Assembly: GCF_014218275.1 (NCBI RefSeq)
Contig: NZ_AP023213.1
Coordinates: 1,342,001 to 1,406,000, forward strand
Source of the DNA: Citrifermentans bremense
GTDB taxonomy: Bacteria; Desulfobacterota; Desulfuromonadia; Geobacterales; Geobacteraceae
Length of the DNA: 64,000 nucleotides
Reading direction: 5' to 3'
Part shown: positions 27,777 to 42,167 of the stretch, piece by piece
Numbering within the stretch: position 1 is the stretch's first letter
How the letters are laid out: each line of letters opens with the position of its first letter
The notes under the pieces: model-generated
The model's input: only the letters and a program-made list of their open reading frames with translations
Databases searched by the model: none
Told to the model about the DNA's origin: nothing
Made by a program: the position numbers and the translations under genes

Positions 27777-28340
27777 TTAGGCCTGGTTTTTCGCTTCCGC
27801 CTCGTACTTCTCCACCACGCTCCTGTAATGCGCCTCGAACCCTGCTGCCGACTTTTCCTCGGCCGCGCGGTACCCCGCCACGATGTCCTCGCGCATCTCC
27901 TCCGGGAGCACCCGCTCCGCCAGGGGGTAGAGTATGTCGTCCTCCTTGGCGATATGATCCCGCAGAAGCTCCAGGTACCCCCTCGCGTTGGCGACTATGG
28001 CCTCTTCCTGTCCCGCTTCGCCGGCTAAGGCGCGGGTCGCCGCCTCCTCCATCCCCTTCACGAAGGCCCTTCCCAGGTCGTGCTCCATCAGCATTGCCGC
28101 CACGGGGCTGTTGGCCTTGGGCATGCCGTTTGCCACCAGGGCTTCGAACAGGACATCCTCCTCCTTGGCGTGGTGGAAACGGTCGGCGTAATTCCTGATG
28201 AAGTCGACCCCGTCCAGGTAGAACCGGTAATTCTTGAAGGTGCCCTCTTCAGTGCGTTTCGCGTTCTGCTCCAAAAGGGCGAGCATGCGCAGTATCAGCT
28301 GGTGTTCGTCCTTGAGCCTCTGGGTGATGTCCCGTTTCAT
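27777..28340 (-). CDS. Hemerythrin-like di-iron protein
   Basis: A 187-residue protein of the hemerythrin HHE-domain family. Histidine/glutamate ligand spacing is visible in KDEHQLILRML, FHHAKEEDVLFEAL, MLMEHDLGRAFV and LRDHIAKEDDILYPL. Such proteins bind oxygen or NO at a di-iron centre, or help repair Fe-S proteins. The ATG at 28340 follows a GAGGAGGA ribosome site; the ORF track frame running to 28694 lies over the next gene. It ends the three-gene operon described at 28343 and 28879. Confidence 0.9.
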   Translation of the reverse strand: MKRDITQRLKDEHQLILRMLALLEQNAKRTEEGTFKNYRFYLDGVDFIRNYADRFHHAKEEDVLFEALVANGMPKANSPVAAMLMEHDLGRAFVKGMEEAATRALAGEAGQEEAIVANARGYLELLRDHIAKEDDILYPLAERVLPEEMREDIVAGYRAAEEKSAAGFEAHYRSVVEKYEAEAKNQA

Positions 28341-28342
28341 CC

Positions 28343-28801
28343 CTAGTTCCTCCTCTCCCCGTTGATGCCGATCACCGCGGTCTCGAGCGGTATCTCCTTG
28401 CCGGAGAGCGTGAGCGCCTGACGCACCATCATGTCCAGACCGCGGCAGCAGGGGACTTCCATGATGGCAACGGTGATGCTCTTTACCTCGTTTTCCCTGA
28501 AGATCGTCGCCAGTTTTTCCACGTAGGGGGTGCTGTCGTCGAGTTTCGGGCAGGCTATCGCCAGTGCCTTTCCCTTCAAAAGGTCGCTGTGGAAGCTTCC
28601 CAGCGCGAAGGCGACGCAGTCCGCCGCGATCAGTATGTCGCTGTCCTGGAACCAGGGGGCGGTGGGGGGGACCAGGTGCAGCTGCACCGGCCACTGCCGC
28701 AATTCCGAAGCCGCCTTAACCGTGGTCTCCTGCTCGTTTGCCTCGTTCCTCTCGATAACCCTTGCCATGCTGCCCGGGCAGCCGCATCCTGCATGTGCCA
28801 T
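28343..28801 (-). CDS. Uncharacterised protein with CGCPGSM motif, related to Fe-S protein C-termini
   Basis: A 152-residue protein starting MAHAGCGCPGSM, resembling a metal-binding peptide. The rest (WFQDSDILIAADCVAFALG, KGKALAIACPKLDD, MEVPCCRGLDMM) resembles the C-terminal half of larger ferredoxin-type proteins found in Desulfuromonadota. In those relatives an N-terminal pair of 4Fe-4S clusters precedes this domain; here that part is absent. Its stop lies two bases before the hemerythrin start, so the genes are coupled. Function unknown; a redox or NO/oxygen response is suggested by the neighbours. Confidence 0.65.
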   Translation of the reverse strand: MAHAGCGCPGSMARVIERNEANEQETTVKAASELRQWPVQLHLVPPTAPWFQDSDILIAADCVAFALGSFHSDLLKGKALAIACPKLDDSTPYVEKLATIFRENEVKSITVAIMEVPCCRGLDMMVRQALTLSGKEIPLETAVIGINGERRN

Positions 28802-28878
28802 GTTCTTATCTCCTGTTATTGTAATTATTTTGAATGGTGCCGGTTATGTCGATGGTGCCCAAGTCCTTCAGGCACCGG

Positions 28879-29103
28879 CTAATTTTCCGCTTTTTGATCC
28901 AAATAGTCATTTATTTCTTTTTCGACCGAGGCTTCCTGCTCCTTGGTCAGCCCGTGGATCGATACCACGTCCTTCAGAAGGCAGATACCGACCTTGCAGG
29001 TGACGCAACCGATCTCGTAGCGGTTCAGGATCTCGCCGATCCCGGGGTGGCTTGCTATCACGTTTTGTATCGCCGCATCTCCTAAGCCGTTTTTGAATTC
29101 CAT
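28879..29103 (-). CDS. DUF1858 small protein (ScdA N-terminal-like)
   Basis: A 74-residue protein with a DUF1858/ScdA_N-like domain: ASHPGIGEILNRYEIGC, then CVTCKVGICLL with paired cysteines. In iron-repair proteins of the YtfE/RIC/ScdA group a comparable domain precedes a hemerythrin domain; here the two parts are separate genes in one operon. The longer frame to 29175 is not used because ATG 29103 follows GGAGGGAGC. Confidence 0.85.
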   Translation of the reverse strand: MEFKNGLGDAAIQNVIASHPGIGEILNRYEIGCVTCKVGICLLKDVVSIHGLTKEQEASVEKEINDYLDQKAEN

Positions 29104-29175: not shown

Positions 29176-29286
29176 AAATATACGATTCTCCGCATGCCTT
29201 GGAAAATGGCTCTATGATCGGAGAATCATTGACCTCTTCATGAATGCGCGTAGAATTGGTGGCTAAAACAAAAAATGGAGGCGGCG

Positions 29287-29940
29287 ATGGAACATGACCT
29301 GAGATCGCAGATAGCTGCGCTGGAGCATTCCTACCGCGCGAATTCCCCAGAAAAGGCGGAACTCCTCGACAAGGCGTACCGGGATATTGCCGCCTGTGCC
29401 AGCACGGCAGGAGCCCCAAAGGCCGGCGGCGAGGCCCCCGATTTCACCCTGCCCAACGCGGTGGGGATACCGGTCAGGCTCTCCGATGCGCTTACCAACG
29501 GGCCCGTGGTGCTCACCTTCTACCGGGGGATCTGGTGACCATACTGCAGCCTTCAGTTGAGGGCCTACCAGAAGATCCTCCCGCAAGTGTTGCACCTTGG
29601 GGCGGCGCTCATCGCGGTCTCGCCGCAGAGCCCGGACAAGACCCAGGCGACGCTCTTGAAGAACTTCCTGCAGTACGAGGTCTTGAGCGACCTGGGAAAC
29701 CAGGTCGCCCGCAGCTACGGGCTCGTGTACCGGCTTCCGGACTGGGTGCGCGAGCTCTACATCTCCTTGGGGGTGAACCTTCCAGAGTACAACGCCGACC
29801 AGTCGTGGGAGCTTCCTTTAGCGGGAACCTTCGTGATCGGGCAAAACCGGCGTGTCATCCTGAGCTACGTGGACAGCGACCCTAGGAACCGTCTGGAGCC
29901 GCAGGCAATACTGGATGTGCTGGGGGCGAAGCACGCTTAA
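29287..29940 (+). CDS. Peroxiredoxin-like selenoprotein read through an in-frame UGA
   Basis: Two open frames, 29287-29538 and the continuation to 29940, are the same frame interrupted only by UGA at 29536-29538. Read as selenocysteine, the active site becomes FYRGIW-U-PYC, the redox motif of the AhpC/TSA-like (YRGxWCPYC) family with the first cysteine replaced. Surrounding sequence is continuous before (GEAPDFTLPNA) and after (SLQLRAYQKILPQ, LIAVSPQSPD), total 217 residues, U84 and C87. A SECIS-like hairpin lies just after the UGA. A conventional annotation would show two pseudogene halves. The enzyme should reduce peroxides or disulfides; its partner is unknown. Confidence 0.85.
29544..29571 (+). 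promoter_or_regulatory. Bacterial SECIS-like hairpin after the UGA
   Basis: CTG...CAG (29544-29546 with 29569-29571) and GCCTTC...GAGGGC (29549-29554 with 29559-29564) form a two-part stem with a four-base apical loop AGTT. The loop G (29556) is 18 bases after the UGA, in the range used by bacterial SelB-dependent SECIS elements. The fold was made by eye. Confidence 0.6.
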
Positions 29941-29944
29941 GTCT

Positions 29945-29985
29945 ATCCCTCACCCCACCCCTCTCCCAGAGGGCGAGGGAGAGCT
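29945..29985. repeat. REP-like inverted repeat between the selenoprotein and pfk genes
   Basis: A C-rich arm (CCCTCTCCC) and a G-rich arm (GGGCGAGGG) separated by AGA form a hairpin. This CACCCC/CTCTCCC-type palindrome is a common intergenic repeat in bacteria. It has no T-run, so it is not a convincing terminator; a T-run lies 50 bases further. Confidence 0.5.
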
Positions 29986-41816: not shown

Positions 41817-42167
41817 TGGTGGAGGTGGCGGGAATCGAACCCGCGTCCGAAAGTCGTACACAAAAGGCGTCTACATGCTTATACCTGTTTTTAATTTAAC
41901 CTCTCAGGACTCCACAGGCCGGGATTCCTGATCGGCGGTTCCGCTAAATTTCGCCGCAGGGCCACGGACTCTCCCTGAAACTATCCCACTGAATGACGTT
42001 CTATCCTCCCCCGTGGGAGAAGCGAGGTAGAACGTTAGCAGGTTATTAAGCTGCTAAAGCGTAATCGTAATTGTCGGCGCTTAATGCGTCCCGGATTGTT
42101 TAACGAGCCACCCGGACCTCGGCATGCAACCTTTGCTTATTACCCCCGTCGAAACCTTTACACCCCC
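41817..42167 (-). ncRNA. ssrA: tmRNA (transfer-messenger RNA)
   Basis: A complete 351-nt tmRNA on the minus strand. Its 5' end GGGGGTGTAAAGGTTTCGAC and 3' end TTCGATTCCCGCCACC...ACCA pair as the acceptor stem, and the genomic CCA is encoded. The tag reading frame ends in TAATAA and encodes ADNYDYALAA (42049-42078). With SmpB it rescues stalled ribosomes and tags the peptides for proteolysis. smpB lies just upstream on the same strand. Confidence 0.97.

Follow-up and report, generated by a model that had tools for sequence, protein, structure and literature searches.

A probable selenoprotein with a peroxiredoxin-like fold, encoded across an in-frame UGA in Citrifermentans bremense

One gene in the 64,000-nt stretch of Citrifermentans bremense DNA analysed here (the window) most probably encodes a selenoprotein, in which an in-frame UGA would specify selenocysteine 84 (Sec84) and in which Sec84 and Cys87 would act as a redox pair; we put the probability of this reading at about 0.88. 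The coordinates of the gene and its signals are collected in Table 1. New here are the comparative support for selenocysteine insertion, the placement of Sec away from the peroxidatic position, and the variation between Sec and Cys within one genus.

Table 1. Features of the gene and its surroundings (window coordinates)
Feature	Position	Strand	Basis
Promoter-like TTGACC-16-TAGAAT, 10/12, tentative	29229..29256	+	Consensus match only
Ribosome-binding site GGAGG, 5 nt 5' of the ATG	29277..29281	+	Read from the sequence; close relatives similar
Gene of the probable selenoprotein: 217 codons and the stop TAA, a single UGA in frame; AhpC-TSA/Prx-like domain	29287..29940	+	Translation, Pfam
Predicted lower helix of the SECIS, 29531-29537 paired with 29566-29572; takes in bases 1 and 2 of the UGA	29531..29572	+	Prediction, pairing, frozen codons
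UGA, probable selenocysteine 84, first position of UxxC	29536..29538	+	TGA in 21/24 family relatives
Codon of Cys87, partner Cys of Sec-Pro-Tyr-Cys	29545..29547	+	Invariant in alignments A1 and A2; PDB alignments
Apical stem-loop, putative bSECIS: stem 29549-29554/29559-29564, loop 29555-29558 (AGUU)	29549..29564	+	Fold, comparison

With TGA translated as U, the gene gives a single translation whose sole U is residue 84 and which runs to the terminal TAA. The initial annotation had taken the two frames flanking the UGA for one and the UGA for a replacement of the first cysteine of a YRGxWC-x-x-C motif. Both claims stand: there is one frame of 217 codons, and the motif reads FYRGIW-U-PYC, with homologues that carry Cys at exactly this codon. 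Its expectation that standard annotation would split the gene was likewise borne out by ORF calling, which cuts it into 29275-29538 and 29557-29940. The Pfam family AhpC-TSA (PF00578) matches residues 47-190, across the UGA, with 93.9 bits (gathering score 26), the parts 5' and 3' of the UGA scoring 25.5 and 48.8 bits, respectively. The start residue at ATG 29287 is common to the close relatives L011-L027. Of 243 candidates for UGA read-through across the window, a crude filter left 30; by eye three of these show the letters U-x-x-C (29536 +, 15484 - and 61053 -). Of the three, 29536 alone lies within a Pfam domain; a Pfam search gave no family match for the other two.

The gene is flanked by a divergent small protein on one side and a phosphofructokinase on the other. 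The divergent neighbours (27780-29103, - strand) are a hemerythrin-domain protein and two proteins for which Pfam gave no match at E <= 0.001. The ORF lists of 12 loci, compared by eye, suggest that several members of the genus have similar neighbours and that those outside it have others, so the context tells little about function. Directly after the stop codon, at 29947-29973, lies a C-rich stretch with the short palindrome CTCTCCCAGAG; a search of the window within 3 mismatches found no further copy. The window also holds a tmRNA gene with the tag ADNYDYALAA (41817-42167, - strand).

Fold, active site and likely chemistry

An AlphaFold2 model based on an alignment of 36 sequences (mean pLDDT 94.3) finds its closest solved folds in the Bcp/PrxQ peroxiredoxins, followed by AhpE and ResA. 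Sec84 stands immediately before helix 85-96 of the model, and in two alignments with solved peroxiredoxins residue 84 falls on the Ser/Thr and Cys87 on the Cys of S/T-x-x-C. The classical peroxiredoxin signature reads PxxxT/SxxC. Only its cysteine is kept here, as Cys87: the Pro that stands four residues before the Ser/Thr in both PDB alignments is replaced by Arg80, invariant in our alignments A1 and A2, and the Thr/Ser itself by Sec84. The protein does present a thioredoxin-like Sec-x-x-Cys pair.

None of the curated NCBIfam cut-offs was passed by the window protein. It scored 41 bits against the thioredoxin-dependent thiol peroxidase (NF006960, cut-off 140), 29.8 bits against the ResA-type thiol:disulfide oxidoreductases (cut-off 170), which share a close fold with it and carry CxxC at a helix start, and 36.7 bits against the SelL-related redox protein (NF040769, cut-off 120), whose profile covers residues 49-211 with an E-value of 3e-9. 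Alignment A2 has 36 members, 35 of the 45 loci of a wider relative search having been taken into it. At E <= 1e-5 the thiol peroxidase model matches all 36 and the SelL-related model 35 of them; the ResA-type disulfide oxidoreductase models also match this protein group, and the best E-value of the other 35 members against the NCBIfam models is 1.2e-17.

The alternative that survives best is a selenoprotein acting mainly as a peroxidase, in which Cys87 or Sec84 would reduce hydroperoxides and the other residue would resolve. It draws on the peroxiredoxin fold, for which Bcp/PrxQ and AhpE are among the closest solved matches, on the alignment of Cys87 with the peroxidatic Cys, and on the uniform match of A2 to the thiol peroxidase model, under whose cut-off the window protein nevertheless lies well short. 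We consider it a live but less likely reading, given that the peroxiredoxin signature is lost (an invariant Arg for Pro, Sec or Cys for Ser/Thr) and that the ResA-type models match too. Since Sec84 occupies the Thr/Ser site and Cys87 the peroxidatic position, we regard a Sec-Cys thiol:disulfide oxidoreductase as more likely than a classical peroxidase. The initial annotation had left the choice between peroxidase and disulfide reductase undecided; its Sec-x-x-Cys redox pair stands, and of its two enzymes the disulfide reductase is the likelier, as Sec is not at the peroxidatic site. Reading the redox function from fold and motif, we lean towards a disulfide, not a peroxide, as the main substrate.

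For the Sec84-Cys87 redox pair we propose the following chemistry: the selenolate of Sec84, at a thioredoxin-type first position and at the start of a helix, would attack either a peroxide or, more probably, a disulfide; Cys87 would then resolve, giving a Sec84-Cys87 selenenylsulfide; and a reductant of the thioredoxin or glutaredoxin type would reopen it. We infer this chemistry and its reductant, as we do the substrate, the cell location and the actual insertion of selenocysteine.

Selenocysteine machinery and the hairpin after the UGA

The genes for selenocysteine insertion, which the initial annotation had proposed to look for, are all found in the same 4.46-Mb contig, each above its family cut-off: selA (600.6 bits), selB (395.1 bits), tRNA-Sec or selC (74.9 bits) and selD (362.1 bits). 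The selD gene (L042, G000:C1:3892030-3892947, - strand) has one in-frame TGA inside, so the selenophosphate synthetase is probably itself a selenoprotein. Among genomes with a match to the window protein, selA is present in 23 of 24 in the family and in 27 of 28 in the phylum (G000 excluded), the two exceptions being 78% and 82% complete. As selA occurs in 44 of the 48 family genomes overall, its co-occurrence with the gene within the family says little.

Downstream of the UGA, the sequence GCCUUC-AGUU-GAGGGC can form a stem-loop of 6 bp with a 4-nt loop that has a G at position 2 and lies 16 nt from the UGA, and the MFE for 29536-29580 is -9.8 kcal/mol. By the bSECIS rules given in a 2026 review, the stem has 4-16 bp, the loop 3-9 nt with a G in its first two bases, the distance from the UGA is 16-37 nt, and the MFE is <= -7.5 (PMC13188914). 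The hairpin agrees with these rules, its spacing being at the lower limit, and the earlier claim of a stem-loop at the right distance with a G in its loop is thereby upheld. Against dinucleotide shuffles, its fold was unremarkable (z -0.16 to -0.87); the stem-loop by itself therefore proves nothing, and the case for a SECIS rests on comparative data.

These data concern, first, the codons. The 16 Sec rows from the genus do not differ at all in codons +2 to +8, +10 and +11 after the UGA, and the strongest freezing over 11 conserved codons falls on +2 to +12. Synonymous identity averages 0.88 over codons +3 to +13 and 0.59 over 105 other conserved codons (p = 3e-4). When the fold was compared with synonymous recodings, the mean z was -1.58 for 44 distinct Sec rows and -0.18 for 27 distinct Cys rows (p = 6e-7); because the rows are related, the p-values of both tests overstate their independence. 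The window's own z was -1.04 (p 0.135); 12 of the 44 Sec rows lay above -1 and two above 0. The recoding test drew on 80 loci (L010-L033, L062-L089 and L092-L119), of which 71 rows were kept: L066, L083, L088 and L118 (without a regex match) and five with a repeated 45-nt stretch were dropped, and for L065 and L075, with two motif hits each, the first was taken.

The second line is pairing. In alignment A4 (22 Sec rows, including L071 and L093 from outside the family), which represents a first form of the hairpin, 96% of cells are paired against 40-51% when the structure is slid, and the lower helix is 94% paired across 19 distinct Sec sequences, values biased in favour of a structure that was derived from the window sequence. 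At 29553-29560, 13 of these 19 sequences have U-A and the other 6 have G-C, a change on both sides of the pair; one or two events may account for all six G-C rows. None of 500 shuffles reached the pairing or the covariation score of the first form, while its count of both-sided pairs (2) was reached by 102 and that of further pair types by 447 of the 500. A second form, found in other Desulfobacterota, is built around GGAGCU-GGA-AGCUC, mostly 19-20 nt from the UGA (about 19-21); here 85% of cells are paired against 32-49% when slid, and one pair is changed on both sides in 6 of 20 distinct sequences. Its covariation score was reached by 10 of 500 shuffles, its both-sided pair count by 342 and its further pair types by 499. 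The alignment for this form, A5, holds 21 of 27 rows, chosen by eye, L033 among them; it leaves out L093 (in A4) and L092, L094, L095, L096 and L100, in which the hairpin takes a third position, 23-24 nt from the UGA. Together, the comparisons support selection on the hairpin as RNA, of a kind that fits a SECIS. If it is one, SelB with GTP and Sec-tRNA(Sec) would bind it just 3' of the UGA, and selenocysteine would be inserted at residue 84 of a 217-residue protein with a peroxiredoxin/ResA-like thioredoxin fold.

A UGA followed by C is a leaky context, and a C stands directly after the UGA in every Sec row listed (the recoding set and alignments A4 and A5). Near-cognate decoding could thus put plain Trp or Cys at this codon with no use of selenium; the genome's Sec machinery, however, fits Sec insertion, as do the homologues with Cys and the selection on the SECIS-like hairpin, and we hold such ordinary readthrough to be very improbable.

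The UGA codon among relatives

At E <= 1e-20 a match to the window protein was found in 24 of 48 family genomes, the window's own included, and the aligned codon is TGA in 21 of these places and Cys in 3. A Cys homologue at the UGA position, a check suggested by the initial annotation, thus exists among the family relatives, and the absence of conservation downstream of the UGA, which it had named as evidence to the contrary, was not observed: in the family, the stretch after the UGA is well conserved. Among the relatives with names are Citrifermentans bremense and many species of Geomonas. The phylum sample gave 31 places in 29 of 395 genomes, counts that are lower bounds, since at most 7 first-look candidates were scored per genome. 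One in-frame TGA occurs in 28 of the 31 places and none in two; the remaining one, L118, contains two TGA and one TAA and is probably a decayed copy. The Sec motif was recognised by regex at 27 of the 28 TGA-bearing places and by eye at the last (FFRGVWUVFC), and UxxC is found in every Sec row in which the motif could be read.

Cys forms occur in Chloroflexota, Pseudomonadota, Bacteroidota, Bacillota and others; the search patterns of this wider survey may favour Cys forms, so that its Sec/Cys ratio was not used. A Sec relative was seen in a Myxococcota bin (L071). In a Chloroflexi MAG (L088) the sequence FYRSEWUPYCNLQLR has its TGA at the same site, and the match looks broken further on; this is either Sec within a Chloroflexi bin or a binning error. 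Plasmid homologues number 92 records, mostly named 'peroxiredoxin-like family protein' among the 20 matches listed.

The two frames produced by ORF calling might be two proteins, a short one stopping at the UGA and another starting from TTG 29557 or nearby. The AhpC-TSA domain and the redox motif straddle the UGA, though, uninterrupted Cys forms exist, and no ribosome-binding site is seen by eye before 29557, which makes this reading even less probable than ordinary readthrough. Least probable of all is a recent pseudogene or sequencing error, for although TGC becomes TGA by one base and three members of the genus have Cys, the UGA recurs, in frames that are otherwise open and conserved, both in the family (21 of 24 relatives) and throughout the phylum, which is decisive, and synonymous sites downstream are frozen.

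Within the genus, three rows carry Cys at the UGA codon (L024, L026 and L027), and all three genomes hold selA. A hairpin in line with the bSECIS rules is absent from two of the three genes; L024 retains a 6-bp hairpin in place. A quick tree with the U/C column masked comprised 76 rows, 48 Sec and 28 Cys (the 80 loci of the recoding test plus L120, minus five without a regex match). The minimum on this tree is 9 state changes, of which well-supported branches require 3; the tree drew long-branch warnings, and support is poor for 32 of its 73 inner branches. All three Cys rows from the genus fall, together with 16 Sec rows, into a supported clade of 19. A change from Sec to Cys is the natural reading of this pattern, short of proof.

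Place among known selenoproteins

Proteins of this kind are already known, as published lists include UxxC Prx-like selenoproteins, Geobacter among them. Prx-like thiol:disulfide oxidoreductase selenoproteins are given for Geobacter metallireducens and G. sulfurreducens, and a 'Prx-like' one for G. uraniumreducens (PMC1794560, Genome Biol 2006); Prx-like families with TxxU and UxxC were described in BMC Bioinformatics 2007 (PMC1914089); the GOS study lists 225 Prx-like 1 UxxC proteins (PMC2398784); and the 2026 review assigns UxxC/UxxU to PF00578 and UxxS to cd02970, besides other Prx-like forms (PMC13188914). The definition of Prx-like oxidoreductase selenoproteins in that review, a PF00578 domain with UxxC, applies to the window protein, which thus shares domain and motif with their example WP_010940744.1 as far as the catalogue describes it.

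Genera g3, g5 and g6 (G003, G006 and G007-G010) yielded no relatives of the window protein at E <= 1e-20; among their PF00578 matches (E <= 1e-5), a single one with a TGA occurs in each of G007-G010, in every case TxxU, and none in G003 or G006. The window protein and the UxxC protein of the catalogue may therefore belong to different branches. The peroxiredoxin-like selenoproteins of cd02970 (earlier AhpC-TSA_2) likewise have Sec first in their motif, as outlined in two papers (PMC13188914, PMC9312934), but this motif is UxxS, not UxxC, and Pfam AhpC-TSA_2 gave no match to the window protein at E <= 0.001. The selenocysteine peroxiredoxins of the Bcp/PrxU type (TxxU) belong to the same superfamily and differ in carrying Sec at the second, peroxidatic position, whereas the window protein has Sec first and Cys second. 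A second AhpC-TSA gene with an in-frame TGA lies about 9.4 kb past the end of the window (L142, G000:C1:1415446-1415787, - strand). We rejected it as the published UxxC protein, since it reads DFTPGU, that is TxxU; it is a candidate Bcp-type selenocysteine peroxiredoxin with Sec at the peroxidatic position. A limited literature search found no paper on selenocysteine in Geomonas and, for Geobacter bemidjiensis, only titles off the subject.

Tentatively, and with rather less confidence than doubt, we suggest that the FYRGxWUPYC proteins form a separate selenoprotein family, widespread in the phylum and without a catalogue name of its own, the catalogue having been compared by description. If so, they would represent an enzyme of peroxiredoxin fold converted to a Sec-Cys reductase of disulfides (or peroxides), marked by an invariant Arg in place of the peroxiredoxin proline and by Sec in place of Thr, with members in the Myxococcota (L071) and Chloroflexi (L088) bins as well. 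The family would use several forms of SECIS, their loops lying 16, 19-21 or 23-24 nt beyond the UGA, and would have undergone Sec-to-Cys reversions inside one genus that retains selA.

Standard ORF calling splits the gene and loses its active site; read correctly, it gives this group of Geobacter relatives one more Sec enzyme in their selenoproteome. The genus amounts to a natural experiment, with Sec and Cys at the same site in close relatives that all hold selA, in which one could study, on similar proteins, what advantage Sec brings over Cys and how a SECIS decays once it is no longer needed.
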